Positions 1,869-31,030 of a stretch of 64,000 nucleotides of DNA are shown piece after piece. Below the pieces are notes generated by a model. The model ran no database searches. It worked only from the letters and a program-made list of their open reading frames with translations, and was not told the origin of the DNA. Each line of letters opens with the position of its first letter. Position 1 is the stretch's first letter. This DNA comes from Terebella lapidaria. Its lineage: Eukaryota > Annelida > Polychaeta > Terebellida > Terebellidae. Position numbers and translations under genes: made by a program. The stretch is from NCBI GenBank assembly GCA_949152475.1, contig OX424561.1, positions 2,356,001 to 2,420,000 of the forward strand, given 5' to 3'.

Positions 1869-1876
1869 GACTCATC

Positions 1877-2580: not shown

Positions 2581-2619
2581 TAGATCCAGTGTATCCGCGC
2601 TCTCGAGGCACTGGATCTA
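2581..2619. repeat. Hairpin with 11-bp perfect arms
   Basis: TAGATCCAGTG at 2581-2591 is exactly inverse to CACTGGATCTA at 2609-2619, with a 17-nt GC-rich loop. It lies just upstream of a dispersed repeat that starts near 2650. The role is unknown. Confidence 0.6.
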
Positions 2620-2649
2620 AAGTGGGGCGAGATTTGGTTTGGCATTGTG

Positions 2650-3702: not shown

Positions 3703-3724
3703 TTTGTTTGTTAGTTTGTTTGTT

Positions 3725-6551
3725 ACTTGGCGAAATCTTCGATTTTGCCAAGTATGTTAGTTGGTTTTTCTGTATGTAATTTTGTAAGTTTGTTTGTTTG
3801 TCCGTTCACCCTCTAGGGGGCGCAATTTCAGTCCGATTTTTGTAAAATTTTCACCAGACATGCACATCTAAATTGTTAGATCCCCCATCGTTTTTCAAGG
3901 TCGTAGGTCAAAGGTCAAGGTCACAGGAACGTTTTGAAAATCGTTTGCCATTCAAGCCAATGATAAACTTAAAACGTCCATATCTCAAAAACTATTGCAG
4001 ATAGAGCAAAAATAACGTTATTTTCGGATCAGTAACATAGGTATTATATATGAAAAGCATAGATTATGCAAATTAGCATGTACTTCACTATGATGACGTC
4101 ATCTCACACCAAACCGGAAGTAGAATTATTTTTCAAGCAAATGGGCTCAGGGTGCCCGAAGATCAGTTATTAGACCATTTCGATGTGTTTCAAGGCCGAA
4201 AATTGATACTTTCCCCTATTATCACCCACTTTTCCATCATAACCTCCATATCTCAATAAATATTAATCGTAGCACAAAAAGGACGTTGATTTCGGACCCG
4301 TAGGGCTATTTGGCAATATACTAGTGTGGTTTGGTATCAGATTACACCTGTGGTGTCAAATTACACCAAAGCGAAAATAGAAGCTTGTATGCATCTGAAT
4401 ACTGATCTCAAACAACATTTCTGCTGTTTTCAAACTCAGTGATGTCCACATGATCTGATGAAGCCTAAAAGTCACGCTTGAATGCAATCTCTATGAAGCT
4501 AGGGGCTCCTAAATATTGGCATATTTGGGGGTGACGAACCGGCGTTGGCTAGGCAGCACTGTTGCCGGTCTTAAGCAGTGATCAACTCAATACCAAAGAT
4601 CTTGTATATACACCTGATATTGGCTGCTTCTTATTTTACATGCAGGAATCTTTGTTCGCACCATACAGGCCACAATTTTGTGTCATCCTGACCAAACTTT
4701 CCACACGTAGCAACTACGGGCTACCTCAGATCATCCCAAGTTTTCAAGCTCGAGATTCGAATGATGACATCACAAAAACTTGCAAACAATGGCATAATTC
4801 CTATCTCTCATCATTGGCGTTTTTTTTCAATTTTTCAGCATTTCACACAGCAGTCAAATTCTGACCGATTTTTACAGGGTTCAGCATGTTGTATCAATTG
4901 ATATCCTCCATGAAAGAATAAAGTTTTGACTGGATTTAGACTTCATGAACTAAAATGTGGATTTTTCAAATAGGTTTATATAATGTACAGTATTCGCTGT
5001 AGAGAGAAGCAGATTTCACTGTTGTGAGGCTCGATAAATTCTGGTTTAATTTGTCACTGTCTGATACACCATGATAATTTTATTTGCTATAACGTCATGA
5101 ACACAGAGGCAGGTAGGTCAATTATCTAACTGTTTAGAAAGCTTTCAAACATCCACTGTGCACGCAATTTCAGAACTATTTGCCTGTTATTTTGAGGACA
5201 TATGTTGAATACTGATATCAAGTCATACTCTGAGTTCTGAGACGCTATGTGGAAGGTAGCTTCAATTTTCGAAGTACAGTTCTACTACGGGAAGTATTCG
5301 GTTATCCTAGAGTGCAACAGTTTACACCATTGGAAAGCTTGTTCAATTCTGCCCAAGGTAGGTCATGTGCAATTTTGCTCTTCCACAATATATTTTATAC
5401 TATGACGTATTAAACGTAAGTCTCGTCATATCAATTTTTCGATTTTTCAACAAAAATTTACAAATCCACTGTACACTTAATTTTGAAGCTATTCAACTGT
5501 AATTTGAAATAACTGTATGAAATATTATTACCCAAGGATAAGTTGAGTACCAGCTATATCTCGGTTTTTAATTATTGTAGATTGAAATGAATTACAGCAT
5601 TGCAAAACTTATTCAATTCTACGCAAGTCATGTTATGTGTGAAACTTGTCTACGTGGACACAATTTTTATGCTATATCATATGATAGATACCTTCATACC
5701 AGTTATTCAACTTTTCACCGAAATTTCAAACATCCACTTTGCACTCACTTTTGAAGGTATTGTATTGTTCTTTTAAAATATATGGGATATCGAATAGCTT
5801 TGAAATTGCTCAACATATGATACCACATAATTCATCATCATATGATAGCTTTTTGTTGCTTCCTCGTCTACGTGTATCCTATTCTTGTAATCTGTAAACC
5901 AGTTACATTGTTGTAAACCAGTTACATCATTGTCATTGTGTATACAATTCGTTAACCTCTTTAACTGACATGCTGTGAATATTGATGAGTTATTTGCACA
6001 GTTGAATCAAACAATTAAAACCAACGTTACCGGTAATAACCACAAAATCCTATTAATTTTAACGTGTCAGATTTTCTCGAAGTGTCAATACCATCCATTG
6101 ACATCTACGTGATGAAGCTACATCTATTGATATCAATAATGCATGTAGTAAGTGCAAATGTCCCACCATTACAGTTTTTGTTTATAACACAAACTGCTCG
6201 TCAATGACATTTCAGAATTAAAACTTCAATTAGTTTTTTACAGTCAGATTTCGCCAAGTGTCACTGCGGAGCAGTGATAAAAAACAACCACTGTATATTG
6301 CAATTAATGTCTGAAGTATCGCTCAAGACGTCAGATCTAAAGTCTGTCCAGCTCAATTTTCAAGTAATTACTCAACATCAGCTCAAAACAATTGTGCACT
6401 GCGCTCATGTAAGCTCATTGTAATGCTGTTATCTAATTTTATGTATGGCAAATATCATCAAATCTGTCAAAATTCTAAAACCTAAAACGCAAAAATCTAA
6501 AACGCAAAAAAGACGCTGCATTTCGCCAAGGCTGCTTGCAGCGTTTTCTCG
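3725..6551 (+). mobile_element. Non-autonomous Helentron-like element, subtype A (copy E1, complete)
   Basis: The 5' end is ACTTGGCGAAAT, folding with GCCAAGT 22 bases on into a terminal hairpin. The 3' end has ATTTCGCCAAG (inverse of the 5' end), the hairpin GCTGC-TT-GCAGC and GTTTTCTCG. The flanks are T on both sides, as expected for Helitron2/Helentron insertion between T and T. Inside are the left flank with CCCTCTAGGGGGCGC, the AGGTCA triplet at 3905, a CRE at 4094, one 257-bp-type unit, and a unique ~1.9-kb middle. That middle has three diverged repeats (around 5150, 5460 and 5730) of the form CATCCACTGTGCACGC. It is nearly identical to 25694-28533. It encodes no protein. Confidence 0.8.
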
Positions 6552-6553
6552 TT

Positions 6554-6607
6554 ACTTGGCGAAATCTTCGATTTTGCCAAGTATGTTGATCGGTTTGGAT
6601 GTTTGTT
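6554..6607 (+). mobile_element. Orphan subtype A 5' hairpin
   Basis: A 54-bp unit consisting only of the terminal hairpin (ACTTGGC/GCCAAGT), the ATGTTGATCGGTTTGGATG spacer and a TTTG run. A second, identical hairpin follows at 6608. In a nested-insertion reading, this hairpin belongs to the body that resumes at 10171, and the elements 6608-8428 and 8435-10170 were inserted into its TTTG tract. Confidence 0.65.
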
Positions 6608-8428
6608 ACTTGGCGAAATCTTCGATTTTGCCAAGTATGTTGATCGGTTTGGATGTGTGTTTGTTTGTTTGTCTGTTCGCCCTCTAGAGGGCGCAATTTT
6701 CATCTGATTTTTGTGAAATTTTGACCACACATGCACATCCAAATTCTTAGATCCCCCATTGTTTTTCAAGGTCGTAGGTCAAAGGTCAAGGTCACAGGAA
6801 CGTTTTGAAAATCGCCTGCCATTTAAGCCAATGATAAACTTAAAAGGTCCATATCTCAAAAACTATTGCAGATAGAGCAAAAATAACATCATTTTCGGAT
6901 CAGTCACATAGGTATAATATATAAAAATCATAGATTATGCAAATTAGCATGTATTTCACTATGATGACGTCATCTCACACCAAACCGGAAGTAGAATTAT
7001 TTTCCAAGCAAATGGACTCAGGATGCCCAAGGATCAGTTTTCAGGCCATTTTGGTGTGTTTGAAGGCCAAAAATTGATACTTTCCCCTATTATCACCCAC
7101 TTTCCAATGAAAACCTCCATATCTCAGCGAATATTGATCGTAGAGCGAAAAGGACGTTATTTTCGGACCCGTAGGGCTAATCGGTATTTTATTAGGTGTG
7201 GTTTGGTATCAGATTACACCTGTGGTGTCAAATTAGACCAAACCGGATGTAGAATTATTTTTCAAGCAAATTGGCCCAGGATGCCCAAGGATCAGTTATA
7301 AGGCCGTTTTGGTGTGTTTCAAGGCCAAAAATTGATATTTTCCCCTATTATCACCCACTTTCCATAAAAACCTCCATATCTCATTAAATATTGATCGTAG
7401 AGCAAAAAGGACGTTATTTTGGGACCCAAAGGGCTAATTGGCATTGAACTAAGTGTGGTTTGTTATCAGATTACACCTATGGTGTCTAATTACACCAAAC
7501 CGGAAGTAGAATTATTTTTCAAGCAAATGGGCTCAGGATGCCCAAGGATCAGTTATTTTTCCAGTTTGGTGTCTTTCAAGGCCCAAAAATGATACTTTTT
7601 CTTATTATCACCCACTTTCCATAAAAACCTCCACATCTCATTAAATATTGATCATAGAGCAAAAAGAACGTTCTTTTCTCACCCACAGGGCTAATTTGCA
7701 ATATAAGAGGTGAGGTTTGGTATCAGAATACAGCTGTGGTGTCATATTACACAAAACCAAAAGTAGACATATTTTGAAGCGAATAGGCTCAGGATGCCCA
7801 TTGTTCAGTTCTCAGGCCGTTTTAGTGTAAAAAAAAAAACATATACTTCTATCAAGTTGACATGCTGTGAATACTTTTGAGTTATTGGCACAGTTGAATT
7901 ACACAATTGCCACCAACGTTACAGGTAGTAACTACAAAATCAAAAAATCCAATCAATTTTAACGTGTCAGATTTTTTCAAAGTGTCAATACTATTGTAAC
8001 TGTCATGATTAAACTACATCTATCAGACACCAATAACGCATTTAGTAAGTGCAATTGTCCCACCAATACAGTTTTTGTTTATAACACAAACTGCTCCTCA
8101 ATGACATTTCAAAATTAAAAATTCAATTAGTTTTTCACAGTTGGATTTCGCCAAGTGTCACTGCGGAGCAGTGATAAAAAACAACCACTGTATATTGCAA
8201 TTAATGTCTGAAGTATCGCTCAAGAAGTCATCAAATCTGAAGTGTGTCCAGCTCAATCTTCAAGTATTTGAGCAACATCAGCTCAGACAATTGTGAACAG
8301 CGCTGATGTAATCTCATTGTAATGCTGTTATCTAGTTTTATGGCAAATATCAAATCTGTCAAAATGCTAAAATCTAAAACGCAAAAAAGACGCTGCATTT
8401 CGCCAAGGCTGCTTGCAGCGTTTTCTCG
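6608..8428 (+). mobile_element. Non-autonomous Helentron-like element, subtype A (E2, complete)
   Basis: 5' hairpin, TTTG run, CCCTCTAGAGGGCGC hairpin, AGGTCA triplet at 6776, CRE near 6965, then about four tandem 257-bp units (6990-7800). A right flank with the inner terminus near 8155 and the outer terminus ending at 8428 follows. Inserted between T and T. Short open frames in the array come from the repeat and are not genes. Confidence 0.75.
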
Positions 8429-8434
8429 TTTGTT

Positions 8435-10170
8435 ACTTGCCAGAATCTTCGATTTTGGCAAGTATGTTGGTCTGTTCGTGGATGTGTTTGTTTGTGTGTT
8501 TGTTTGTTTGTTTGTTTACAGCCTAGCGTCCACATTTCTCACCCGATTTCCTCCAAATTTCGTGTACATATTCTCTAGTATACCGCGCGGAAAACGTCCT
8601 ATTTTGGTGTATGTAGGTCAAAGGTCAAGGTCAAGGTCAAGCAAAACGTTGAAAACACATAAGTGGCCATAACTTCGGTTCTAATAGTGCTAGAGACTTC
8701 AAATCAAGTTCATATTGTAGATAAACTCGAGTTCTATCTTTCGTGACCTTGACCTTGACATTTGACCTTGAACTTGAGAAGTTCGCCTGAGGTCGAATAT
8801 TTGACCTTGGAGGTCACCTCCTCCGATTTTCGATCTGATGCTTGGAAACGATGTGGGACCGGTCCCTTATGCTCAATGTCAATTTTTAGCCCAATCGGCC
8901 AATTCGTTATGACGTAATTGACGTTTCTATGGCAACGAAATCGGTCCCATTATAAGCCAAATTGCATTTTTCAAGCTGTCCATGCTGATAAAAGCGTCAA
9001 AAATGTGCGTAAGAATCCAATGAAGAACCTGTTAATTAGCAAGGATGACTTCTTTTGATCCACGAAATTTCAAGGTCGTAGGTCGAAAGTCAAGGTCAAC
9101 ATTGACCCGCAAGTGAAAACCATGTAGGTCACTATATCTCAGGAAGTAAGCAAGATAGAGACACGAAAGTAAATCCACAGTATTGCACTCACTTAGCTCA
9201 ACAACTTTTGCATTTACACCTAAGGCGTATGACCGATAGCCTTTGCAAGCGCCTAAGGTCGAAATTGACCTAAAAAATGACCTTGACCTTGACCTTTTGC
9301 AAAAATATCGAGTAGTAATTCATTTGAAAGGTCTTCAAGAGTACTTTCCAAATGTGTTGTCATTTTTGGAATCGGACGTCAATTGACGTCATAATGACGT
9401 CGAATGTGATTTCAGACTGACATTTAGGCCTTTTGAGTGTCAGGTGTGCAAACTTACAAGATTCACTGCGGACCTAACAGCTGCAAACGATGTGGATTCG
9501 GTCTATGATGCTCTCTGTCAAGTTTTAGCTCAATCCATATATCCATTTTGACGTAATTGACGTTTTTGTGGCAACAAATCGCTAAATTTTCAAAGAAAAC
9601 TTATTATTTCAAGATATTATGATCTTGTCTGCTGATAATATAATACATATATAAATTATTTTGACATGCATATTCAAAAAAATCATTTCACAGTGAGTTT
9701 GCAGCATAGAATTGACGACAAATGACGTCATAATTACGTCAAAATCACATAAATGGCCATTACTTCGAAACTAATCGTCGTAGAGAGTTCAAACTAAGAC
9801 CATATTGCAGCATATTAAAAAATCTTCCTTATTTGACTTTGAATTTGACCTTGTTCTTGAGACTTTGTGATGAGCTCAATGTCGAGGGCAAGTACGAAGT
9901 TCAGCTCACCATATCGGGTAGTATACCTTTAGAAAGTTTTTGGTCTCCTAAGTCCAGTGATGTCTCATTTTTGGCACTGTGACGTTCAATGAGGTAACAA
10001 TGACAGTATGAGTAGTTTGTGAAGTAAAGTGAAGTAAAATGAAGTAAAGTAAGTAAGTAAACGTAGTAAGTAGGGAAGTAAGTTTCGTCAATTTGTTAAA
10101 TCCATATGTCATGTCATTGGCATATGACATATATTTTGGTTCTGGCAAGTGTGTGCCCTATGGGCTCTCG
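8435..10170 (+). mobile_element. Non-autonomous Helentron-like element, subtype C (complete)
   Basis: The 5' end is ACTTGCCAGAAT, folding with GGCAAGT. The 3' end is GGTTCTGGCAAGT (12 of 13 bases inverse to the 5' end), then the hairpin GCCC-TAT-GGGC and TCTCG. Both flanks are T, so the ends are well defined. The interior is unlike subtype A: it is dense in AGGTCA and TGACCT (four AGGTCA at 8615-8639) and has a CRE pair at 9384-9402 and a GTAA-rich run at 10018-10085. It is inserted in the TTTG tract between the E2 3' end and the body at 10171. Confidence 0.75.
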
Positions 10171-12009
10171 TTTGTTTGTTTGTCCGTTCGCCCTCTAGGG
10201 GGCGCAATTTTTATCTGATTTTTGTGAAATTTTCACCAGACATACAAATCCAAATTGTTAGATCCGGCATTGTTTTTCAAGGTCGTAGGTCAAAGGTCAA
10301 GGTCACAGGAACGTTTTGAAAATCGTTTGCCATTTAAGTCAATGATGAACTTAAAACCTCCATATCTCAAAAACTATTGCAGATAGAGCAAAAATAACGT
10401 TATTTTCGGATCAGTCACATAGGTATAATATATAAAAATCATAGATTATGCAAATCAGCATGTATTTCACTATGATGACGTCATCCCACACCAAACCGGA
10501 AGTAGAATTATTTTTCAAGCAAATGGGCTCAGGATGCCCAAGGATCAGTTATTAGGCCATTTTGGTGTGTTTCCAGGCCAAAAATTGATACTTTCCCCTA
10601 TTATCACCCACTTTCCATAAAAACCTCCATATCTCCATAAATATAGATCGTAGAGCAAAAAGGACGTTATTTTCGGACCCGTAGGGCTAATTGGCATCAT
10701 ATTAGGTGTGGTTTGGTATCAGATTACACCTGTGGTGTCAAATTAGACCAAACCGGAAGTAGAATTATTTTTCAAACAAATGGTCTCAGGATGCCCAAGG
10801 ATCAGTTATTAAGCCAATTTGGTGTCTTTCAATGCCCAAAAGTGATACTTTCCCCTATTATCACTCACTTCCCATGAAAACCTCCATATCTCAGTAAATA
10901 TTGCTCGTAGAGCAAAAAAGACGTTATTTTCGGACCCATAGGGCTAATTGGCATTAAACTAAGTGTGGTTTGTTATCAGATTACACCTGTGGTGTCAAAT
11001 TACACCAAACCGGAAGTAGAATTATTTTTCAAGCGAATGGGCTCAGGATGCCCAAGGATAAGTTATTAAGCCAATTTGGTGTCTTTCAAGGCCTAAAAGT
11101 GATACTTTGCCCTATTATCACTCACTTCCCATAAAAACCTCCATATCTCATTAATTATTGATCGTAGAGCAAAAAGGACGTTATTTTGGGACCCAAAGGG
11201 CGAATTTGCAATATAATAGGTGAGGTTTGGTATCAGAATGCAGCTGTTGTGTCAAATTACACCAAACCGAAAGGAAAATTTTTTATATACTAGGTGTGGT
11301 TTGGTATCAGATTACACCTGTGGTGTCAAACTACACAAAACCGAAAGTAGAATTATTTTCAAGCGAATTGGTTCAGGATGCCCATTGTTCAGTTCTCAGG
11401 GCGTTTCAGTGTAAAATAAATTATACTGCTATCAAGTTGACATGCTGTGAATACTTTTGAGTTATTGGCACAGTTGAATTACACAATTGCCACCAACGTT
11501 ACAAGTAGTAACTACAAAATCGAAAAATCCAATCAATTTTAACGTGTCAGACTTTTTTATAGTGTCAATACTATGGTAACTGTCATGATCAAACTACATC
11601 TATCAGACACCAATAATGCATTTAGTAAATGCAATTGTCCCACCAATACATTTTTGTTTATAACACAAACTGCTCCTCAATGACATTTCAAAATTAAAAA
11701 TTCAATAAGTTTTTCACAGTTGGATTTCGCCAAGTGTCACTGCGGAGCAGTGATAAAAACAACCACTGTATATTGCAATTAATGTCTGAAGTATCGCTCA
11801 AGAAGTCATCAAATCTGAAGTGTGTCCAGCTCAATTTTCAAGTATTTGAGCAACATCAGCTCAGACAATTGTGAACAGCGCTGATGTAATCTCATTGTAA
11901 TGCTGTTATCTAGTTTTATGGCAAATATCATCAAATCTGTCAAAATGCTAAAATCTAAAACGCAAAAAAGACGCTGCATTTCGCCAAGGCTGCTTGCAGC
12001 GTTTTCTCG
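10171..12009 (+). mobile_element. Helentron-like subtype A body (E4) without adjacent 5' hairpin
   Basis: Starts in the TTTG run and continues with the usual left flank (CCCTCTAGGGGGCGC, AGGTCA triplet at 10287, CRE), about four 257-bp units, the inner terminus near 11724 and the outer terminus ending at 12009. The 5' hairpin is absent here; the orphan hairpin at 6554 is the likely original end. Confidence 0.7.
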
Positions 12010-12031
12010 TTTGTAATTTTGTTTGTTTGTT

Positions 12032-14492
12032 ACTTGGCGAAATCTTCGATTTTGCCAAGTATGTTGATCGGTTTGGATGTTTGTTTGTAATTTTGTTTGT
12101 TTGTTTGTCTGTTCGCCCTCTAGAGGGCGCCATTTTTGTCAGATTTTTGTGACATTTTGCCCACACATGCACATCCAAATTCTTAGATCCCCCATTGTTT
12201 TTCAAGGTCGTAGGTCAAAGGTCAAGGTCACAGGAACATTTTGAAAATCGCCTGCCATTTAAGCCAATGATAAAATTAAAAGGTCCATATCTCAAGAACT
12301 ATTGCAGATAGAGCAAAAATAACATTATTTTCGGATCAGCAACATAGGTTTAATATATAAAAAGCATAGATTATGCAAATTAGCATGTATTTTACTATGA
12401 TGACGTCATCTCACACCAAACCGGAAGTAGAATTATTTTCCAAGCAAATGGACTCAAGATGCCCAAGGATCAGTTTTTAGGCCATTTTGGTGTGTTTGAA
12501 AGCCAAAAATTGATACTTTCCCCTATTATCACCCACTTTTCAACGAAAACCTCCATATCTCAGTGAATATTGATCGTAGAGCAAAAAGGACGTTATTTTC
12601 GGACCCATAGGGCTAAATGGCACTATTTTAGGTGTGGTTTGGTATCAGATTACACCTGTGGTGTCAAATTAGACCAAACCGGAAGTAGAATTATTTTCCA
12701 AGCAAATGGGCCCAGGATGCCCAAGGATCAGTTATTAGGCCGTTTTGGTGTGTTTCAAGGCCAAAAATTGATACTTTCCCCTATCATCACCCACTTTCCA
12801 TAAAAACCTCCATATCTCAATAAATATTGATCATAGAGCAAAAAGGACGCTACTTTCGGACCCATAGGGCTAATTGGCAATATAATAAGTGTGGTTTGGT
12901 ATCAGATTACACCTGTGGTGTCAAATTACACCAAACCGGAAGTAGAATTATTTCTCAAGCAAATGGGCTCAGGATGCCCAAGGATCAGTTATTTTTCCAT
13001 TTTGATGTCTTTCAAGGCCCAAAAATGATACTTTCCCCTATTATCACCCACTTTCCATGAAAAACCTCCATATATCAGTAAATATTGATTGTAGAGCAAA
13101 AAAGACGTTATTTTCGGACCCATAGGGCTAATTGGCATTAAACTAAGTGTGGTTTGTTATCAGATTACACCTGTGGTGTCAAATTACACCAAACCGGAAG
13201 TAGAATTATTTTTCAAGCAAATGGGCTCAGGATGCCCAAGGATAAGTTATTAAGCCAATTTGGTGTCTTTCAAGGCCCAAGATTGATACCTTCCCCTATT
13301 ATCGCCCACTTTCCATAAAAACCTCCATATCTCATTAAATATTGATCGTAGAGCAAAAAGGACGTTATTTTCAGACCCAGAGGGCTAATTTGCAACATGA
13401 TAAGTGTGGTTTGGTATCAGATTACACTTGTGGTGTCAAATCACACCAAACCGGAGGTAGAATTATTTTTCAAGCAAATGGTCTGAGGATGAAGAGGATC
13501 AGTTATTAGGCCGTTTTGGTGTGTTTCAAGGCCAAAAATGAATACTTTCTCCAATTATAACTCACTTTCCATGAAAACCTCCATATCTCATTAATTATTG
13601 ATCGTAGAGCAAAAAGAACGTTATTTTCAGACCCGGAGGGCTAATTGACAATATATTAGGTGTGGTTTGTTATCAGATTACACCTGTTGTGTCAAATTAC
13701 ATCTAACCGGAAGTAGAATTGTTTATATACTAGGTGTGGTTTGGTATCAGATTACACCTGTTGTGTCAAATTACATCAAACCGGAAGTAGAATTGTTTAT
13801 ATACTAGGTGTGGTTTGGTATCAGATTACACCTGTGGTCTCAAATTACACAAATCCGAAAGTAGAATTATTTTCAAGCGAATGGGCTCAGGATGCCCACT
13901 GTTCAGTTCTCAGGCTGGTTTAGTGTAAAATTAAAAAAAAACATATACAGCTATCAAACTGACATGCTGTGAATACTTATAAGTTATTTGCACAGTTGAT
14001 TTAAACAATTGACACACCATGATAATTTTACTTTCTATAACTATGGTAATTGTCATGATTAAGCTACATCTATTGAGACTAATAACGTATGTATTAAGTG
14101 CAATTGTCCCACCACTACAGTTTTTATTTATAACACAAACTGCTCCTCAATGACATTTCAGAATTAAAAACTCAATTAGTATTTTACAGTTTGATTTCGC
14201 CAAGTGTCACTGCGGAGCAGTGATAAAAAAAAAACCAACCACTGTATATTGCAATTAATGTCTGAAGTATCGTTCAAGAAGTATGTCCAGCTCAATTTTT
14301 AAGTATTTGATCAACATCAGCTCGAAACAATTGTGCACAGCGCTGATGTAAGCTCATTGTAATGCTGTTATCTAGTTTTTTATGTATGGCAAAAATCATC
14401 AAATCTGTCAACATTCTAAAACCTAAAACGCAAAAATCTAAAACGCAAAAAAGACGCTGCATTTCGCCAAGGCTGCTTGCAGCGTTTTCTCG
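12032..14492 (+). mobile_element. Helentron-like subtype A element (E5)
   Basis: Complete, with 5' hairpin at 12032, AGGTCA triplet at 12212, about six 257-bp units, a cluster of short partial units near 13660-13860, inner terminus near 14190 and outer terminus ending at 14492. From about 12105 onward it is almost identical to the following body (14493-16878), offset by 2,389-2,390 bp. Confidence 0.75.
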
Positions 14493-18992: not shown

Positions 18993-18994
18993 TT

Positions 18995-19144
18995 ACTTGG
19001 CGAAATCTTCGATTTTGCCAAGTATGTTGGTCGGTTTGGATGTATGTTTTTTACTTGACGAAATTAAATTTCGTCAAGTATGTTGGTCAGTTGCGTTTGT
19101 CTGTTTGTCTGTTTGTTACTTGACGAAATTAAATTTCGTCAAGT
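18995..19144 (+). mobile_element. Stack of three Helentron-like 5' hairpins (A, B, B)
   Basis: One subtype A hairpin starts at 18995. Two subtype B hairpins lie at 19053-19079 and 19118-19144, each with ACTTGACGAAATT perfectly inverse to AATTTCGTCAAGT around a single central base. ATGTTGGTC follows each, then TTTG/TCTG-rich spacers. Three starts with no bodies between them are what nested insertion into the 5' TTTG tract would leave. Confidence 0.7.
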
Positions 19145-19298
19145 ATGTTGGTCAGTTGAGTTTATCTGTTTGTTTGTTTGTGTGCACTCTACAGGTCACA
19201 ATTTTGGTCGTATCGTCATGAAGCTTCACCAGAAGGTAGACAATCAATTTCGGACCAAGTGGTAAACTTTAAGGAGGTCAAGGTCAAAAATTGAGGTC

Positions 19299-20275
19299 AA
19301 GGTCATAGAAAAGGTCAAAATCGAAAAATCGCAATAACTTCGCTTCTAATTGAGATTATTTTTTCTGGGTATTTATATATTTCTCTATGGTCAATTCTGC
19401 ATCATCTGATGCATGTCCGATGGTCGTACGACCAAAATTCCCGATTTTCGGTCCAGGTCGAAAATTTGGGGGTCAAGAATTTAGGTTTTTCCTGTCTCAC
19501 AATATTCAAAATCATATTATAGAGCCAGGTTCCAATATATGTTGCTGATTTTTACTCAGGAGTTGTGCCTTATCACGCAGAACAAGATCCTGAAGTTTCA
19601 GAGCTCAGGGTCAAGGATTAGAGTTAAGGTCATAGTAAAGGTCAAAATCGAAAAATCGTGATAACTCCGCTTCTAATCAAGATTATTTTTTCTGTGTATT
19701 TTTATATTTTTCTATGGTCAATTCCGCATCACATGATGCATGTCTGATGGTCGTATGACCTAAACTCTCGATTTTCGGTCCAGGTCGAAAATTTGGGGGT
19801 CATGAACTTAGGTCTTGCTTGTCTCAATTTTCAAAACCCTATTGTAGAGCGAGGTTCCAATATATGTTTCTGATTTTTACCCAGGAGTTGTGCCTTCTCA
19901 CGCAGAACATGACTGTGAAGTTATAGGGCTCAAGGTCAAGAATTACAGTTAAGGTCATAGTAAAGGTCAAAATTGAAAAATCGTGATAACTCCGCTTGTA
20001 ATCATGATTATTTTTTCTGATTATTTTTGTATTTTTCTATGGTCAAATCCGCATCATATGATACATGTCCGATGGTCGTATGACCAAAACTCTGGATTTT
20101 CGGTCCAGGTCGAAAATTTGGGGGTCATGAATTTAGGTTTTTCCTGTCTCACAATATTCAAAACCACATTATAGAGCCAGGCTCCAATATATATTGCCGG
20201 ATTTTACTCAGGAGTTGTGCCTGATCACGCAGAATAAGATTGTGAAGTTGTAGAACTCAAGGTCACGAGTTTTCC
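19299..20275 (+). repeat. 326-bp tandem repeat, three units
   Basis: AAGGTCATAG recurs at 19299, 19625 and 19951, exactly 326 bp apart each time. The first unit contains the perfect palindrome GGTCGTACGACC near 19420, which has decayed to GGTCGTATGACC in the later units. Each unit also holds GGTCCAGGTCGAAAATTTGG. Confidence 0.75.
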
Positions 20276-20392
20276 CGATCGAATTCTGCACGCTGCCAGT
20301 CCAATGTACAGCCATGGCATAATTCAGTGTTTATCCTGAGCGAAGTCTCTCCTACGCACTATACTTTACACGTGTTGAGTTTCAATGAACAG

Positions 20393-20465
20393 AATGGCGC
20401 AGTCAGTAGAGGCGTTAGGTATATGTGCGAGGGGTCAGTGATTCGATTCTCACCGTTGACTGATA
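20393..20465 (+). ncRNA. tRNA-like / SINE-head segment
   Basis: TGGCGCAGTCAGTAGAGGCG resembles a tRNA A box and D arm, and GTGATTCGATTCTCAC resembles a B box and T arm at about the right distance. A run of nine T follows at 20466, suitable as a pol III stop. The acceptor stem does not close, so this is not a functional tRNA; a tRNA-derived SINE head or tRNA pseudogene is more likely. The rest of 20290-21280 shows nothing recognisable. Confidence 0.4.
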
Positions 20466-21312
20466 TTTTTTTTTCTTCTAAAATTCAATTCCAAATGACT
20501 TTTTCTATTTCTGAGTGGTCTTGTAAGCATCCCAAACCTGCCATGCTTTATATGTAATTCTATTGTTTCGAATTATAATGATCACCTTTGAAGGAAAAAA
20601 CACTGTTCCACGAACAGTGACAAACTATTTTATCGGGCTTTCTAGTGGTATCATCAAAATCTAGTTTGTTCTTTATATTTAAAGTTACAAGCCGCTTTAA
20701 ATTCAGCATTACGGCCACAACTGTGAATGACCTGTGGTATTAGCTGCTAACAAATGCATGACAAAAGGCGTGTACCAGATGATATGTCTGCTTCATATGA
20801 TGCATGTGGGATTGGGGGTCTGGTAAGTTGCATGGCGAATGGCCCAGATTAAACACTGTATCGTGTGTACAGGGTCTCATTGGTTTCATTATGATCGAGC
20901 GATGCATGTTTTTGTCATAACGCGTTTGTGTTAACTCGTTTCTTCATAGCCTTAAAATATGACCTAATTACAACTGTTTGTTGTTTACTTGTTGTCAATG
21001 AAATTTCATATTTGTGCGGGAATATTTGCTGTTTGTTATTCGCTCATTTTTAGGCTATCGATATTTGTTTTTGGATTTTTGTAATTTTGATATATTTTAG
21101 GTTTTTTAGTAGTGGCATCATCAAAATTTTGTGCCGTTAGCATGGTTAGAGGTAATATATTATGTTGATACATACGCAAACTAGATGTTTCAAATGGTTC
21201 AGTTTCCAATGCTATATGTTGTCAGGGGATGCCATAAATGTGTAAATAATGAGTAAATGTTTTGAATGTAAACAAATGTGTAGATTTTCGTCAAGTGTTG
21301 GCCTATGGCCGA

Positions 21313-23493
21313 TTTTTTGTTTGTTTGCTTGTTAGCGCTCCACAGGTCACAATTTTGAATGTAGAATCATGGAATTAGGTCAGAAGATGTACAATCCAAT
21401 ATAGATGGATGAGTTCATTTTTGGGAGGTCAAGGTCAAATATTGAGGTCAAGGTCACGCAAAACGATAAAAACACATAAATGGCCATAACTCCGGTTCTA
21501 ATTGTCCTAAAGACTTCAAACCAAATTCATATTGTAGATAAACTCGAGTTCTATCTTCTGTGACCTTGACCTTGGCATTTCACCTTGACCTTGAGAAGTT
21601 CGCCATGAGGTGAATGACAAGGTCAAGTACGAAGGTCAGCGCACCATATCGAGTAGTATATCGTTTGAAAGGTCTTGACCCCCTGATTGCAGTGATACCC
21701 TATTTTCGGCGCTGCGACGTACACTGACGTCACAATGACGTCATAAACGTCAAATTTCCGAAATTTCAAAAGGCCATAACATCGTCAATACTTTATGGAA
21801 TCTCTTCAAACTTGATATGCATATTGACAGCAATGACCTCTACGAATTAAAGTACAAAGGTCAAAAGATAAGGTCAAGGTCATCGAAATCCCAGAAAAAC
21901 ACGTTTCCGGTAATAACATCCGTTTGATTTGTCGTAGGTTCATGAATTTTGAACCATATCCTTCAGAAGAGGTATAGTAATCGAGTGTATATGTCAATTT
22001 TATGATTGACCTCGAAATTTGTCAGGAAAATAAGGTCATATGAGGAAAACTTCAAGGTCAAATTTTCAAACTAACTGAAACCTATCAAGTAGTATATCAA
22101 ATGAAAAGTCTTGATTCCCTGGTACATACTTTCTCATCAGTTTTGAGATGTGACGTTTATTGACGTCACAGTGACGTCATAAACGTTAATTTTTCGAAAT
22201 TTCAAACGGTCATAGTGTCCACAAATCTTGTTTGATTCTAATGAAATTATACAGGTTTAATATATGTCTTCATGCACAGGCAATGCACAATTTTCGTGAC
22301 TCAAGGTCAAAGATCAAGGTCAAGGTCACGCAAAATGTTGAAAACACATAAGTGGCCATAACTCCGGTTCTATTTGTTATAGAGACTTCAAACCAAGTTC
22401 ATATTGTAGATAAACTCGAGTCCTATCTTCTGTGTCCTTGACCTTGGCATTTGACCTTGACCTTGAGAAGTTCGCCATGAGGTGAATGTCAAGGTCAAGT
22501 ACGAAAGTCAGCGCACCATTACGAGTAGTATATCGTTGGAAAGGTTTTGAGCCCCTGTTTGCAGTGATACCCTATTTTCGGCGCTGCGACGTACACTGAC
22601 ATCACAATGACATCATAAACGTCAAATTACCGAAATTTCAAAAGGCCATAACAGCGTCAATACTGTATGGAATACCTTGAAACTTGACATGCATATTAAT
22701 AGCCCTGATCTTTACGAATTGAAATACAAAGGTCAAAGGTCGAGGTCAAGGTCATCGAAATCCCAGAAAAAACACCTTTTCGGTTATAACATCTGTTTGA
22801 ATCGTTGTAGTCTCATAAAATTTGAACCATATCATTCAGAAGAGGTATAGCAATCAGACTTATATGTCAATTCCATGATTAACCTTGAACTTGATCGGAA
22901 AAATGAGGTCACATGAGCAAAACTTCAAGGTCAAATTTTCAAACTAACTAAAAGCTATCAAGTAATATATCAAATGGAAGGCCTTGAACCCATGATAAAT
23001 AGTTTCCCATCAGTTTTCAAATGTGACGTTTATTGACGTCACAGTGACCTCATGTACGCAAATTTTTCGAAATTTCGAAAAGCCACAGTGTCCGGAATTC
23101 TTGTTCGATTCTGATGGAATTGTTCAAGTATAATTTATATCTTCATGCACGGGCAATGCACAATTTTCGTGACCCAAGGTCAAGGGTCAAGGTCAAGGTC
23201 AAAGAAAAGGTCAAAATCACAAAAATTGCCATAACTTCGGAACTATTCGTCAGAGAAAGTTCAAACTGGGACCATATTCTAGCATATCAAAAGGTCTTTG
23301 TCCGCTGACCTTGAATGTGCACTTTGACCTTGACCTGGAAAAGTTTGCCCAAGTAAAAATTTCATGGAAAAAGTATCTTTCTTCAAATGTTGAGGAGTTG
23401 TTCAGTAAATCTTTTCAATGTGTAAATTATGGGTAAATGTTTTAAATGTAAACAAATGTTTAGTCATTTCGTCAAGTGTTGGCCTATGGCCGA
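21313..23493 (+). mobile_element. Helentron-like subtype B body (B2)
   Basis: Starts with TTTG and CTCCACAGGTCACAATTTTG, then AGGTCA/TGACCT-rich sequence in two diverged ~0.9-kb repeats (21430-22250 and 22310-23100), including CRE pairs at 21725-21743 and 22161-22179. It ends with ATTTCGTCAAGTGTT, GGCC-TAT-GGCC and GA. It has no 5' hairpin of its own. A short frame from 23114 is repeated at 25218 but looks non-coding. Confidence 0.65.
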
Positions 23494-25598
23494 TTTTTTG
23501 TATGTTTGTTAGCGCTCTACAGGTCACAATTTTGATCATAAAGTCCCGAAAATTCGTCAGAAGATGTGCAATCAAATATGGATGGATGAGTTCATTCTTG
23601 GAAGAAATCGGTCAATTGATGACGTCACTAAAAATCATTGAAAATCGAAAAATCCCTATCTCTCATCATTGGCGAATTTTCAAAAATTCGTAACTTGTCC
23701 AGTTTTTTAGATATTGATTTGAAAATTCATACACACATGTAGAGTGGCAACTTCTATCGATTAATGAAGTTTGATCCGGATCCGATCCGGATTACGGATT
23801 TGACAGCCATTTTAATTTAACATTGAAAACTCCATTTAATAAATATTTTTTATTATATTCCGGTTTGTTAAGCATATATCACGTTGATTTCTTGCAGAAA
23901 GTGGTTGGACGTTATTGGTCACAAAGTATCAAAGTTTGATCCGGATCCGATCCGGCTCACGGATTCCACAGCCAATTGAATTTAACATTGAAAACTCCAT
24001 TTAACAAATATTTTTTATTATATTCCGGTCTGTTAAGCATATATCATGTTGGTTTCTTGCAGAAAGTGGTTGGACGTTATTGGTCAAAAAGTATCAAAGT
24101 TTGATCCGGATCCGATCCGGATCACGGATTCTACAGCCATTTGAATTTAACATTGAAAAAAACTGCATTTAACACATTCAGTTTTCGGGCAATCATCCTG
24201 AAACTGGTTTGATGGCTAGATATGTGACTCGAACTGTATGGCATGTTTTTAAAAGAAATCGGTTCATTGATGACGTCACTAAAAAAATTTGAAATATTGA
24301 AATATTCCTGTACATAGGGCTAAATTAAAAAAAATCGTCACTTGCTCAGTTTTTCAGATATTGATATGACATTTTATACAACCATGTAGAGTGACAACTT
24401 CTATCAATTTATGAAGTTTGATCCGGATCCGATCCGGATTACGGATTTCACAGCCATTTGAATTTGACATTGAAAACTCCATTAAACAGATACTTTTTAT
24501 TATATTCCAGTCTATTAAGCATATATCACGTTGATTTTATTGCAGAAAACGGTGGTTCATTATTGTTCACAAAGTATCAAAATTTGATCCGGATCCGAAT
24601 GAAGGTCAAATATGAAAGTTAGTGCACCATATCGAGTAGTGTATCGTTGGAAAGGTCTTGAACCCCTGATTCCAATGGTATCTTATTTTCGGCGTTTCGA
24701 CGTATACTGACGTGACAATGACGTCATATATGTTAAAATTCCGAAATTTCAAAAGGCCTTAACAGCGTCAATACTTTATTGAATCTCTTGAAACTTGATA
24801 TGTGTGTTAGTAGCATTGACTTCTACAAATAGAAATACAAAGGTCAAAGGTCAAGGTCATTGAAATCCCAGAAAAACACCTTTTCGGTTATAACATCTGT
24901 TTGAATCGTTGTAGTCTCATAAAATTTGAACCATATCATTCAGAAGAGGTATAGCAATCAGACTTATATGTCAATTCCATGATTAACCTTGAACTTGATC
25001 GGAAAAATGAGGTCACATGAGCAAAACTTCAAGGTCCAATTTTCAAACTAACTAAAAGCTATCAAGTAATATATCAAATGGAAGGCCTTGAACCCATGAT
25101 AAATAGTTTCCCATCAGTTTTCAAATGTGACGTTTATTGACGTCACAGTGACCTCATGTACGTACATTTTTCGAAATTTCGAAAAGCCACAGTGTCCGGA
25201 ATTCTTGTTCGATTCTGATGGAATTGTTCAAGTATAATTTATATCTTCATGCACGGGCAATGCACAATTTTCGTGACCCAAGGTCAAGGGTCAAGGTCAA
25301 GGTCAAAGAAAAGGTCAAAATCACAAAAATTGCCATAACTTCGGAACTATTCGTCATAGAAAGTTCAAACTGGGACCATATTGTAGCATATCAAAAGGTC
25401 TTTGCCCGCTGACCTTGAATGTGCACTTTGACCTTGACCTTGAAAAATTTGCCCAACGTAAAAATTTCATGAAAAAAGTATCTTTCTTCAAATGTCGAGG
25501 AGTTGTTCAGTAAATCTTTTCAATGTGTAAATTATGGGTAAATGTTTTAAATGTAAACAAATGTTTAGTCATTTCGTCAAGTGTTGGCCTATGGCCGA
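23494..25598 (+). mobile_element. Helentron-like subtype B body (B3)
   Basis: Same start (CTCTACAGGTCACAATTTTG) and the same 3' terminus as B2. The first ~1.1 kb is unique and includes the 165-bp repeats described separately. From about 24620 to 25598 it is nearly identical to 22510-23493, offset ~2,104 bp. It is followed by TT and a subtype A hairpin at 25608. Confidence 0.65.
23767..24600 (+). repeat. 165-bp tandem repeat with GGATCC/CCGG palindromic core
   Basis: The core GATCCGGATCCGATCCGG occurs after AAGTTTGATC at 23767, 23932 and 24097 (165-bp steps), again at 24414, and truncated near 24580. A ~650-bp larger block beginning TGATGACGTCACTAAAAA (23617 and 24269) is also duplicated, so the array was copied as a unit. 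No coding frame is seen. Confidence 0.7.
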
Positions 25599-25607
25599 TT
25601 TTTTGTT

Positions 25608-25693
25608 ACTTGGCGAAATCTTCGATTTTGCCAAGTATGTTGATCGGTTTGGATGTTTGTTTGTAATTTTGTTTGTAATTTTGTTAGTTTGTT
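25608..25693 (+). mobile_element. Subtype A 5' end interrupted by E8
   Basis: Complete 5' hairpin (ACTTGGC/GCCAAGT), the ATGTTGATCGGTTTGGATG spacer and a TTTG/TAATTTTG tract that ends in TT where E8 begins. The matching body resumes at 28534 with TTTGTTTG and the left flank. Confidence 0.7.
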
Positions 25694-28533
25694 ACTTGGC
25701 GAAATCTTCGATTTTGCCAAGTATGTTAGTTGGTTTTTCTGTATGTAATTTTGTAAGTTTGTTTGTTTGTCCGTTCACCCTCTAGGGGGCGCAATTTCAG
25801 TCCGATTTTTGTAAAATTTTCACCAGACATGCACATCTAAATTGTTAGATCCCCCATCGTTTTTCAAGGTCGTAGGTCAAAGGTCAAGGTCACAGGAACG
25901 TTTTGAAAATCGTTTGCCATTCAAGCCAATGATAAACTTAAAACGTCCATATCTCAAAAACTATTGCAGATAGAGCAAAAATAACGTTATTTTCGGATCA
26001 GTAACATAGGTATTATATATGAAAAGCATAGATTATGCAAATTAGCATGTACTTCACTATGATGACGTCATCTCACACCAAACCGGAAGTAGAATTATTT
26101 TTCAAGCAAATGGGCTCAGGGTGCCCGAAGATCAGTTATTAGACCATTTCGATGTGTTTCAAGGCCGAAAATTGATACTTTCCCCTATTATCACCCACTT
26201 TTCCATCATAACCTCCATATCTCAATAAATATTAATCGTAGCACAAAAAGGACGTTGATTTCGGACCCGTAGGGCTATTTGGCAATATACTAGTGTGGTT
26301 TGGTATCAGATTACACCTGTGGTGTCAAATTACACCAAAGCGAAAATAGAAGCTTGTATGCATCTGAATACTGATCTCAAACAACATTTCTGCTGTTTTC
26401 AAACTCAGTGATGTCCACATGATCTGATGAAGCCTAAAAGTCACGCTTGAATGCAATCTCTATGAAGCTAGGGGCTCCTAAATATTGGCATATTTGGGGG
26501 TGACGAACCGGCGTTGGCTAGGCAGCACTGTTGCCGGTCTTAAGCAGTGATCAACTCAATACCAAAGATCTTGTATATACACCTGATATTGGCTGCTTCT
26601 TATTTTACATGCAGGAATCTTTGTTCGCACCATACAGGCCACAATTTTGTGTCATCCTAACCAAACTTTCCACACGTAGCAACTACGCGCTACCTCAGAT
26701 CATCCCAAGTTTTCAAGCTCGAGATTCGAATGATGACATCACAAAAACTTGCAAACAATGGCATAATTCCTATCTCTCATCATTGGCGTTTTTTTTTCAA
26801 TTTTTCAGCATTTCACACAGCAGTCAAATTCTGACCGATTTTTACAGGGTTCAGCATGTTGTATCAATTGATATCCTCCATGAAAGAATAAAGTTTTGAC
26901 TGGATTGGTTGAACGCCAAAGACTTCATGAACTAAAATGTGGATTTTTCAAATAGGTTTATATAATGTACAGTATTCGCTGTAGAGAGAAGCAGATTTCA
27001 CTGTTGTGAGGCTCGATAAATTCTGGTTTAATTTGTCACTGTCTGATACACCATGATAATTTTATTTGCTATAACGTCATGAACACAGAGGCAGGTAGGT
27101 CAATTATCTAACTGTTTAGAAAGCTTTCAAACATCCACTGTGCACGCAATTTCAGAACTATTTGCCTGTTATTTTGAGGACATATGTTGAATACTGATAT
27201 CAAGTCATACTCTGAGTTCTGAGACGCTATGTGGAAGGTAGCTTCAATTTTCGAAGTACAGTTCTACTACGGGAAGTATTCGGTTATCCTAGAGTGCAAC
27301 AGTTTACACCATTGGAAAGCTTGTTCAATTCTGCCCAAGGTAGGTCATGTGCAATTTTGCTCTTCCACAATATATTTTATACTATGACGTATTAAACGTA
27401 AGTCTCGTCATATCAATTTTTCGATTTTTCAACAAAAATTTACAAATCCACTGTACACTTAATTTTGAAGCTATTCAACTGTAATTTGAAATAACTGTAT
27501 GAAATATTATTACCCAAGGATAAGTTGAGTACCAGCTATATCTCGGTTTTTAATTATTGTAGATTGAAATGAATTACAGCATTGCAAAACTTATTCAATT
27601 CTACGCAAGTCATGTTATGTGTGAAACTTGTCTACGTGGACACAATTTTTATGCTATATCATATGATAGATACCTTCATACCAGTTATTCAACTTTTCAC
27701 CGAAATTTCAAACATCCACTTTGCACTCACTTTTGAAGGTATTGTATTGTTCTTTTAAAATATATGGGATATCGAATAGCTTTGAAATTGCTCAACATAT
27801 GATACCACATAATTCATCATCATATGATAGCTTTTTGTTGCTTCCTCGTCTACGTGTATCCTATTCTTGTAATCTGTAAACCAGTTACATTGTTGTAAAC
27901 CAGTTACATCATTGTCATTGTGTATACAATTCGTTAACCTCTTTAACTGACATGCTGTGAATATTGATGAGTTATTTGCACAGTTGAATCAAACAATTAA
28001 AACCAACGTTACCGGTAATAACCACAAAATCCTATTAATTTTAACGTGTCAGATTTTCTCGAAGTGTCAATACCATCCATTGACATCTACGTGATGAAGC
28101 TACATCTATTGATATCAATAATGCATGTAGTAAGTGCAAATGTCCCACCATTACAGTTTTTGTTTATAACACAAACTGCTCGTCAATGACATTTCAGAAT
28201 TAAAACTTCAATTAGTTTTTTACAGTCAGATTTCGCCAAGTGTCACTGCGGAGCAGTGATAAAAAACAACCACTGTATATTGCAATTAATGTCTGAAGTA
28301 TCGCTCAAGACGTCAGATCTAAAGTCTGTCCAGCTCAATTTTCAAGTAATTACTCAACATCAGCTCAAAACAATTGTGCACTGCGCTCATGTAAGCTCAT
28401 TGTAATGCTGTTATCTAATTTTATGTATGGCAAATATCATCAAATCTGTCAAAATTCTAAAACCTAAAACGCAAAAATCTAAAACGCAAAAAAGACGCTG
28501 CATTTCGCCAAGGCTGCTTGCAGCGTTTTCTCG
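25694..28533 (+). mobile_element. Helentron-like subtype A element (E8), near-identical to E1
   Basis: It matches 3725-6551 along its whole length with only a handful of substitutions, a one-base T-run difference near 26797, and a ~12-bp insertion near 26907. Both copies begin at ACTTGGCG and end at TTTTCTCG, and the flanks outside differ, so these are true element ends. Both lie between T and T. The one-base indel changes the frame that opens at 4562/26531, arguing that the frame is not coding. Confidence 0.82.
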
Positions 28534-31030
28534 TTTGTTTGTTTGTCTGTTCGCCCTCTAGAGGGCGCAATTTTCGTCTGATTTTTGTGAAATTTTGACC
28601 ACACATGCACATCCAAATTCTTAGATCCCCTATTGTTTTTCAAGGTCGTAGGTCAAAGGTCAAGGTCACGGGAACGTTTTGAAAATCGTCTGTCATTTAA
28701 GCCAATGATAAACTTAAACGTCCATATCTCAAAAACTATTGCCGATAGACCAAAAATAATGTTATTTTCGGATCAGTCACATAGGTACAATATATAAAAA
28801 TAATAGGTTTATGCAAATTAACATGTATTTCCCTATGATGACGTCATCTAACACCAAACCGGAAGTACAATTATTTTTCAAGCAAATGGACTCAGGATGC
28901 CCAAGGATCAGTTATCAGGCCATTTGGGTGTGTTTGAAGGCCAAAAATTGATACTTTCCCCTATTATCACCCACTTTTCCATAAAATCCTCCATATCTCA
29001 GTAAATATTGATCGTAGAGCAAAAAGGACGTTATTTTCGGACCCGTAGGGCTAATTGGCAATATACTAGTTGTGGTTTGGTATCAAATTACACCTGTGGT
29101 GTCAACTTACACTAAACCGGAAGTAGAATTATTTTTCAAGGAAATGGGCTCAGGATGCCCAAGGATCAGTTATTAGGCCGTTTTGGTGTGTTTGAAGGCC
29201 AAAAATTGATACTTTCCCCTATTATCACCCATTTTCCAATAAAAACCCCAATATCTCAGTAAATATTGATCATAGAGCAAAAAGGACGTTATTTTCAGAC
29301 CCATAGGGCTAATTGGCAATATACTAGGTGTGGTTTGTTATCAGATTACACCTGTGCTTTAAAATTACACCAAACCGGAAGTAGAATTATTTTTCAAGCA
29401 AATGGGCTCAGGATGCCCAAGGATCAGTTATTAGGCCGTTTTGGTGTGTTTCTTTCCCTTATTATCACCCACTTTTCCATAAAATCCTCCATATCTCAGT
29501 AAATATTGATCGTAGAGCAAAAAGGACGTTATTTTCGGACCAGTAGGGCTAATTGGCAATATACTAGCTGTGGTTTGGTATCAAATTACACCTGTGGTGT
29601 CAAATTACACCAAACCGGAAGTAGAATTATTTTTCAAGGAAATGGGCTCAGGATGCCCAAGGATCAGTTATTAGGCCGTTTTGTTGTGTTTGAAGGCCAA
29701 AAATTGATACTTTCCCCTATTATCACCCATTTTCCAATAAAAAACCCCATATCTCAGTAAATATTGATCATAGAGCAAAAAGGACGTTATTTTCGGACCC
29801 ATAGGGCTAATTGGCAATATACTAAGTGTGGTTTGGTATCAGATTACACCTGTGGTGTCAAATTACACCAAACCGGAAGTAGGATTATTTTTCAAGCAAA
29901 TGGTCTCAGGATGCCCAACGATCAGTTATTAGACCGTTTTGGTGTGTTTCAAGGCAAAAAATCAATACTTTCCCTTATTATCACCCACATTCTCCATATC
30001 TCATTAAATATTGATCGTAGAGCAAAAAGGACGTTATTTTCAGACCCAAAGGGCTAATTAGCATTATAATAAGTGTGGTTTGGTATCAGATTACACCTGT
30101 GGTGTCAAATTACACCAAACCGGAAGTAGGATTATTTTTCAAGCAAATGGTCTCAGGATGCCCAACGATCAGTTATTAGGCCGTTTTGGTGTGTTTCAAG
30201 GCAAAAAATCAATAATTTCCCCTATTATCACCCACATTCCATAAAAACCTCCATATCTCATTAAATATTGATCGTAGAGCAAAAAGGACGTTATTTTCAG
30301 ACCCATATGGCTAATTGGCATTATAATAAGTGTGGTTTGGTATAAGATTACACCTGTGGTGTCAAATTACACCAAACCGGAAGTAGAATTATTTTTCAAG
30401 CAAATGGGTCGAGGATGTCCATATATCAGTAATCAGGCTGGTTTGGTGTGTTTCAAAGCCAAAAATTGCTAAGCTTTAACCAATTATCATCCACTTTCCA
30501 TAAAAAATTCCAAATCTCATTAAATATTATTATTTTCAGACCCAGAGTGCTAATTGGCATTATACTAGGTGTGGTTTGGTATCAGATCACACCTGTGGTG
30601 TCATATTACACCAAACCGGAAGTAGAATTATTTTTCAAGGAAATGGGCTCAGGATATGCCGATAGATCAGTTATTAAGCCTTTTTGGTGTGTTCCAAGGC
30701 CAAAAATTGCTACTTTCCCCTATTATCACCCACTTTCCATAAAATTTGTATATCATAGTAAATATTGATCATAGAGCAAAAACAACGTTTTTTCAGACTC
30801 ACAGTTCTAGGTTGCAATCAGTCTACGTAATATGGTTTGGTATAAAATTACACCTTTGGTGTCAAATTACACCAAACCGGAAGTAGAATTATTATTCAAG
30901 CGAATTGGTTCAGGATGCCCACGGAACAGTTATTAGGACATATTAATCTAATCAGCATATATTTCACTATGATGATATCATCTCACACCAAACCGGAAGT
31001 AGGATTATTTTTCAAGCAAATGAGCCCAGA
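28534..31030 (+). mobile_element. Helentron-like subtype A body (E9), 3' truncated
   Basis: Left flank with CCCTCTAGAGGGCGC, AGGTCA triplet at 28650, CRE, then about eight 257-bp units, the longest array in the window. Near 30945-31000 a piece of left flank (TTTCACTATGATGATATCATC, CRE lost) recurs. The 3' termini are absent: the element breaks at about 31030 into an inverted piece of another family. Confidence 0.65.

Follow-up and report, generated by a model that had tools for sequence, protein, structure and literature searches.

Nested Helentrons in a 134-kb locus of the annelid Terebella lapidaria and the case for insertion into their own TTTG tracts

How do the 5′ hairpins of Helentron-like transposons come to be stacked on the left of a locus, with bodies that have no hairpin of their own following on the right? 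The question is raised by a 64,000-nucleotide stretch of the genome of the polychaete Terebella lapidaria (the window; contig OX424561.1, here C7:2356001–2420000), for which a preliminary description, made from the letters alone, proposed that new elements insert into the TTTG tract just inside the 5′ end of older ones and push the older bodies to the right. The hairpin stacks from which it argued (6554/6608, 18995/19053/19118, and 25608/25694) are all present, and so are its six hairpin-less bodies (10171, 14493, 16879, 21313, 23494, and 28534), although the fourth and fifth of these start 7 bases further on, at 21320 and 23501. The present analysis took in C7:2256001–2470000 (214 kb) and further loci; window numbering is also used beyond the window's edges (negative, or above 64000), and genome-wide counts refer to 761.6 Mb in 438 contigs. 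C7:2297654–2432079 is one 134-kb Helentron nest that contains the entire window and reaches ~58 kb to its left and ~12 kb to its right. It is very probable that this nest was formed by insertion of Helentrons into the TTTG tract inside the left end of older elements, with hairpins and bodies left in mirror order.

The elements share a common plan: TT, a hairpin (subterminal inverted repeat, subTIR, and its inverted copy), a short spacer, a (TTTG)n tract, the body, a 3′ copy of the subTIR, and a palindrome. In type A, the 5′ start reads TT + ACTTGGCGAAATCTTCGATTTTGCCAAGT + ATGTT, after which come the short spacer and the TTTG tract; the 3′ end reads ATTTCGCCAAG-GCTGCTTGCAGC-GTTTTCTCG, with CTCG as its last letters; and within the window most bodies of this type contain ~257-bp tandem repeats. 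Types B to E follow the plan of A in different letters, and there is also a type F hairpin (TACCCTC..GAGGGTA). Canonical Helitrons begin with 5′ TC, end with 3′ CTRR, have no subTIR, and insert between A and T. These ends are not matched here, the 5′ end being TTACTTGG and the 3′ end CTCG, with subTIRs present. The structural features of Helentrons and HINEs are found instead, namely the ACTTGGCGAAATC..GATTTTGCCAAGT hairpin, (TTTG)n, the ~257-bp repeats, and ATTTCGCCAAG + GCTGCTTGCAGC + GTTTTCTCG; the available parts of the published accounts give the HINE plan as a subTIR with an inverted copy, a microsatellite, central repeats, and a 3′ subTIR with a palindrome (PMC7492417, PMC4067079). The coding hallmark of Helentrons, a Rep/helicase fused to a C-terminal endonuclease, is present in a 2422-aa frame of the autonomous element Aut3 (see below). 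Judged from this plan and this hallmark, the elements are of the Helentron/HINE kind.

Nesting is proven at base level in the left part of the window, where one element has been split twice inside its own TTTG tract. When the 5′ hairpin, spacer, and first tract piece at 6552–6605, the second tract piece at 12010–12029, and the body with its 3′ end at 14493–16878 are joined, they reproduce the intact element at 66868–69327 in 2460 of 2460 bases and without gaps; the body by itself is 100% identical over 2386 bp to 66942–69327. Both inserts (6606–12009 and 12030–14492) lie at G^TTTG of the resident tract, and each brings one TT. Because the composite is identical throughout, hairpin 6554 belongs to body 14493, and the earlier assignment of this hairpin to body 10171 is withdrawn; that pairing, when aligned to the intact copy, shows 139 mismatches and 699 gap columns. 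The split element is rebuilt exactly when TT is counted once per insertion, that is, with no target-site duplication.

Uninterrupted counterparts of interrupted elements are found in several places. The complete element E8 (25692–28533) lies in the tract of Aut3, as the preliminary description had surmised, between the Aut3 hairpin and tract (25606–25691) and the body that starts at 28534; the corresponding empty site is present in the paralogue Aut2 at −23117, where the same hairpin and spacer run straight into the body start shared with Aut3. Over the first 288 aligned columns, the Aut2 tract is shorter by 20 bp, and the two differ besides by 7 mismatches and one gap. On C12, an 8.2-kb nest of A elements lies inside the tract of a D element, and the tract of a D unit that lies 3 kb beyond is uninterrupted; on C273, an A element sits in the tract of one 1.4-kb repeat unit, and a later unit is without the insert. 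Body 16879, lastly, best fits a hairpin that lies beyond the window's left edge, at a distance of ~43 kb: hairpin C7:2330002, the piece at 3703–3722, and this body are proposed to be one element, since the join fits an intact element of the same subtype at L027 except in the number of tract repeats.

If elements have repeatedly entered one another's tracts, hairpins and 3′ ends should read like nested brackets. Nests were coded as typed strings of opening hairpins and closing 3′ ends, and the largest non-crossing pairing of like types was scored and compared with 1000 shuffles of the 3′-end types and 1000 of the whole order. On C7, 20 of 20 hairpins are paired, a value reached by 0 type shuffles and 0 order shuffles; the corresponding figures are 9 of 10 on C1 (1 and 0 shuffles), 5 of 5 on C14 (44 and 8), and 5 of 5 on C12 (340 and 57). 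Hairpins do not far outnumber 3′ ends in any of the four (20/22 on C7, 10/9 on C1, 5/5 on C14, and 5/6 on C12). The two outermost C hairpins on C7 pair with the last two C 3′ ends, and outside this pair no further such element was found in the 214 kb, where all hairpins and 3′ ends of types A–E lie on the + strand. An independent palindrome scan of the same 214 kb (stem of at least 10, one mismatch, loop of 2–8) returned the same 20 ACTTG..CAAGT hairpins and no extra one, and a repeat annotation of the C7 nest that also reported weaker matches left the 20 hairpins and 22 3′ ends unchanged. The strings cover the nests proper: the D hairpin 14747 and later D units on C12 and the B hairpins after 14689 on C14 were left out as lying beyond the tested nest, as were those D and C ends that precede the first hairpin. 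C12 also has a D 3′-like copy within the D body (13683), the true D end being at 14743 and D hairpin 14747 lying past the nest. For C14, the order was predicted before the sequence was seen, with the position of the A end known beforehand, and the predicted series (B end, TCTG-type A body, A end, E body, E end) was then found. The proposal that new elements enter the TTTG tract inside an older 5′ hairpin and push its body to the right is thus borne out by the empty sites, the last-in-first-out order, and the C14 prediction.

Several points weigh against this reading. All of the evidence comes from one assembly; the C1, C12, and C14 nests were picked from the best hits of one search and not at random; and C12 alone is no evidence on types (340 of 1000 shuffles). 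The Aut2/Aut3 empty site is off by 20 bp of tract, 2 of the 22 C7 3′ ends (bodies 10171 and 23501) are without a hairpin, and the type C hairpin 18734 on C1 is without a 3′ end of its own. A second prediction, for C1:73750523, is half tested, in that the expected TCTG body is present and the 3′ end lies beyond the examined stretch. Loss of hairpins by slippage or stack collapse, which is deduced and not seen, is the likely explanation of the hairpin-less bodies: in L028 (1166–8900), tandem 1.4-kb units carry 2, 3, 4, and 1 stacked near-identical B-like hairpin units ~55 bp apart, so that hairpin stacks do change in number.

What the elements aim at was approached through the 74 exact matches to one 34-base pattern of the A hairpin, a census that excludes diverged hairpins. 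Another 5′ hairpin motif lies 15–51 nt upstream in 41 of the 74 (types A–E in 38, type F in 3), 23 follow directly after the 3′ end of another element, and 10 are elsewhere, among them C3:25027519, which was so counted though it is probably within the 3′ part of a B element. With repeated left contexts removed, these classes hold 33, 20, and 10 of 63 hairpins. As background, the rule used here also picks out 42 of 4000 random positions and, among 867 GTTTG sites in the element-rich C7 stretch, 96. Stacked hairpin pairs (A-, D-, or E-like, then any of these types) number 89 genome-wide and the reversed pattern 0; the hairpin-after-hairpin arrangement is not chance. A CAAACAAAC tract was found within 40 nt to the left of 0 of the 74.

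Among the first 100 matches listed (C1:0–33.5 Mb), TTTG tracts of at least 4 units occur at 44 places. Sixteen of these follow the CAAGTATGTT hairpin end; 20 of the other 28 were viewed and classed by eye as 12 element tracts and 8 stand-alone tracts (L092 and L094 being doubtful). In the 214 kb of C7, 16 of 16 TTTG runs of at least 3 units adjoin an element end. The elements are thus a main source of such tracts, and a preference for TTTG alone would already yield much nesting. Dense hairpin-plus-TTTG runs were also noted at C1:33.43–33.53 Mb and C1:38.54–38.64 Mb among the first 100 places listed, where large arrays are likely.

The most durable rival concerns the target itself: a plain preference for any TTTG microsatellite, from which nesting follows because elements carry most such tracts, has a chance not far short of even, and the C1 counts (16 of 44 tracts after a hairpin end, and 12 of 20 viewed others in elements) speak for it. 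Against it, 8 of the 36 classed tracts stand alone, yet not one of the 74 exact A hairpins lies in a TTTG tract of that kind, in a sample of tracts that is small and unweighted by length; this hints at guidance by the element, unproven as that is. We tentatively suggest that the TTTG tract may be an evolved landing pad shared by types A–F, to which the machinery, perhaps Rep on a resident's hairpin, would steer new copies. Of the self-targeting first proposed, insertion into the elements' own tracts stands, and its distinction from targeting of TTTG as such is only partly resolved, most classed tracts lying in such elements.

Rolling-circle read-through would yield units in which several 5′ ends share a single 3′ end, and hairpin stacks would then have moved as units. 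Such units are described in plants (PMC12628747) and proposed for Fusarium (PMC5148889) in the available parts of those accounts, and one E-type hairpin pair turns up more than once here, at several places; yet every hairpin on C7, C14, and C12, and 9 of 10 on C1, can be assigned a correctly ordered 3′ end of matching type, which makes read-through an improbable general account. Composite transposition with several 5′ ends may nevertheless explain some stacks, such as those of L028.

Still less can be said for a head-to-tail tandem array, in which unequal exchange or slippage between TTTG tracts would have multiplied hairpin-less bodies. The neighbouring A bodies 12104, 14493, and 16879 do resemble a 2.4-kb tandem repeat, and the L028 stacks show that changes of this sort happen; but body 14493 matches its neighbour at 99.1% and an element 52 kb distant at 100%, both tract halves are exactly kept, the mirror order holds across 3′ ends of different types, and the 2460/2460 composite contradicts such an origin for the 6.5–17 kb stretch, so that it is very unlikely. 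Tandem arrays exist elsewhere (L027–L029): in L024, L027, and L029, D elements lie head to tail, the 3′ end and the next hairpin meeting as GAGCGATTGCTTC|ATT|hairpin, together with 1.1-kb repeats of D 3′-like sequence, an arrangement that is a tandem type different from the nests. An assembly artefact is hardly credible, for although long near-identical repeats are easily misjoined, the same grammar recurs on C1, C7, C12, and C14, the junctions are exact, and the C14 prediction held.

Nesting by insertion into the tract proceeds in a few steps. A new element enters the resident's TTTG tract at G^TTTG, on the same strand and without target duplication, and the resident hairpin stays on the left as its body shifts to the right, as is seen in the split element; with repetition, hairpins collect on the left and their bodies follow on the right in the mirror-image order. 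The Rep-helicase-endonuclease of autonomous copies would presumably make a rolling-circle intermediate, which could be joined into the T-rich strand beside the resident hairpin, where the tract, or Rep on the resident hairpin, might offer a preferred nick or single-stranded site. Adjacent identical hairpins in a stack could afterwards be lost or multiplied by slippage, leaving a few hairpin-less bodies. Integration of circles by homologous recombination between tracts was rejected: it would swap hairpins and bodies, and spacer and body subtypes stay together (by eye).

The exact ends bear on the insertion point. TT precedes 74 of 74 exact A hairpins and T follows 58 of 58 exact A 3′ ends (TT in 54, TA in 4), in agreement with the T first noted on both sides of every well-defined end. 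The insertion point is not simply the T^T given at first, the two Ts per insertion being the element's own; the simplest reading is that TT...CTCG enters tracts at G^T and host DNA at A^T, and one T at each element end fits equally well. A 2-bp TT target duplication is excluded, since the four A 3′ ends without TT all continue TA. For four insertions into host DNA both flanks are present, the ends having been paired by proximity; three of these read A|TT...CTCG|T and the other falls within a run of Ts, and one T of the flanks may be assigned to either end. According to the literature as far as it was available, Helitron site choice and exact ends are still debated, for example in the sharing of terminal Ts.

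A second 3′-end-like structure (a subTIR copy with the palindrome CACTGCGGAGCAGTG) lies ~250–310 bp ahead of the true A 3′ end, at 3394–3425, 6247–6279, 8144–8176, and 14193–14225 in the window and in other A elements too, as if the A elements had absorbed an older 3′ terminus. A further family, with a hairpin like TACCCTCGCCCCGATAGGGGCAGAGGGTA (L080, L081, L085, L086, L089, L090, and L093), has the hairpin-spacer-TTTG design in other letters, and three A hairpins, two of them with identical context, lie inside the TTTG tract of this family.

Within the C7 nest, three Rep matches fall in long open frames. Aut3 runs from the hairpin at 25606 to a 3′ end (62507–62540) read at 62540 and is interrupted by E8; its main part, 28534–62540, holds ~257-bp repeats and, on the − strand at 34156–41424, the 2422-aa Rep-helicase-endonuclease frame, the only one of the three in which other domains were searched for, with STPR, DUF6570, OTU (704–838), Helitron_like_N (998–1198), PIF1 (1737–1936), and Exo_endo_phos (2236–2415). 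The body at 28534, first described as ending at 31030, is thus the left part of Aut3; a truncated A body ending there and a segmental duplication for 31–51 kb were both dropped once these stretches proved to hold Rep frames. Aut2 has its hairpin at C7:2332885, its 3′ end at window 3702, and an interior 2307-aa frame with a Rep match. Aut1, Aut2, and Aut3 are 91–95% identical to one another around Rep (colinear in parts) and 71–77% over the last ~300 bp; Aut3 at 51.5–62.2 kb has little match to Aut1 or Aut2, so its full extent is a probable one. Window 50395–51462, in Aut3, is a 32-bp tandem array with most copies 94–99% alike, and weak Pfam hits to a 300-aa frame at 50541–51443, inside this repeat, are not credible. 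Aut1 (C7:2321535–2328549, L012–L013) contains a 3508-bp tandem duplication of 99.97% identity. Genome-wide, Rep-domain matches were found at 150 scored places of 234 candidates, many in frames of more than 2000 aa and several with equal scores: there are many autonomous copies that are apparently recent.

The remaining features of the window, all on the + strand, are as follows. The 3′ part of Aut2, its extent suggested by bracket order, occupies 1–3702, with its 3′ terminus (subTIR, palindrome, GTTTTCTCG) at 3669–3702; the proposed middle tract piece at 3703–3722, placed by joined-tract alignment to L027, separates it from E1 (3723–6551), a complete non-autonomous element of the long A subtype whose flanks differ from those of E8 and E0, its matches at 99.4% and 99.3% identity respectively. 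Between the first two pieces of the split element lie E2 (6606–8428), a complete A element with hairpin 6608, body, and A 3′ end; a complete C element (8433–10170; C hairpin 8435, C 3′ end) in the tract of body 10171; and that body (10171–12009), of the A type and TCCG subtype, which has no surviving hairpin and gives one of the two surplus 3′ ends. The second insert is E4 (12030–14492), a complete A element delimited by the composite match and 99.1% identical to the 66870 element. Body 16879 (16879–18992) is an A body of the TATGCACG subtype. At 18993–19050 stands an orphan A hairpin for which tract halves TATGTTTT + TTTGTTTGTCCG and bracket order suggest body 69328–71101 (C7:2425328–2427101) as the partner. 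The B hairpin at 19051–19115 is matched by annotation and bracket order with the B body at 21320–23500, displaced to the right by a complete B element at 19116–21319 (both delimited by end annotation); a B body at 23501–25605 gives the second surplus 3′ end, either it or its neighbour being without a surviving hairpin. Two stacked B hairpins and the start of a B element occupy 62549–64000, and the nest goes on to C7:2432079.

Earlier papers already report Helitron2 self-insertion, microsatellite targets, and the stacking of 5′ ends. Coates et al. are said to have reported in 2010 that Helitron-like elements disrupt (GAAA)n microsatellites in Lepidoptera, likewise a tetranucleotide target. The available parts of the Helentron, HINE, and DINE-1 accounts describe elements like those here in the subTIR hairpin, a microsatellite mostly of 4 nt, central tandem repeats, and a 3′ subTIR with palindrome; in T-rich targets, no target duplication, and terminal Ts owned by the element; and in an autonomous partner with Rep, helicase, endonuclease, and OTU, but those parts do not present the microsatellite as an insertion pad and show no nests (PMC4067079, PMC7492417). 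FoHeli, a Helitron2 of Fusarium oxysporum, resembles the present elements in its 5′ hairpin, stacked 5′ termini, and proposed self-insertion; what is available of its description gives one nested example and a composite model with one 3′ end (PMC5148889), whereas here the nesting is many levels deep, nearly all 5′ ends have a 3′ end, the site is a defined tract, and the empty sites are exact. Plant tandem Helitrons likewise have multiple 5′ ends and look like arrays, but they have many 5′ ends to one 3′ end, rolling-circle amplification is proposed for them, and a mirror order of typed 3′ ends goes unmentioned in the accessible text (Xiong et al., 2016, via PMC12628747). Neither nests this deep directed to a TTTG pad nor Helentrons using each other's microsatellite as a regular site, nor mirror-ordered nests, are described in the open literature found, which is not proof of absence.

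These elements supply their own empty sites, so that a single assembly is enough to read from a nest where the elements end, in what order they inserted, and their relative age, and they offer a concrete way for a rolling-circle transposon to build large clusters while sparing host genes. The nests also make it possible to test directly what attracts insertions, be it the pad, the hairpin, or the two together. If the TTTG tract is indeed a landing pad, kin would serve as a safe harbour, and the genome would keep a last-in-first-out record of insertions tens to hundreds of kilobases long.

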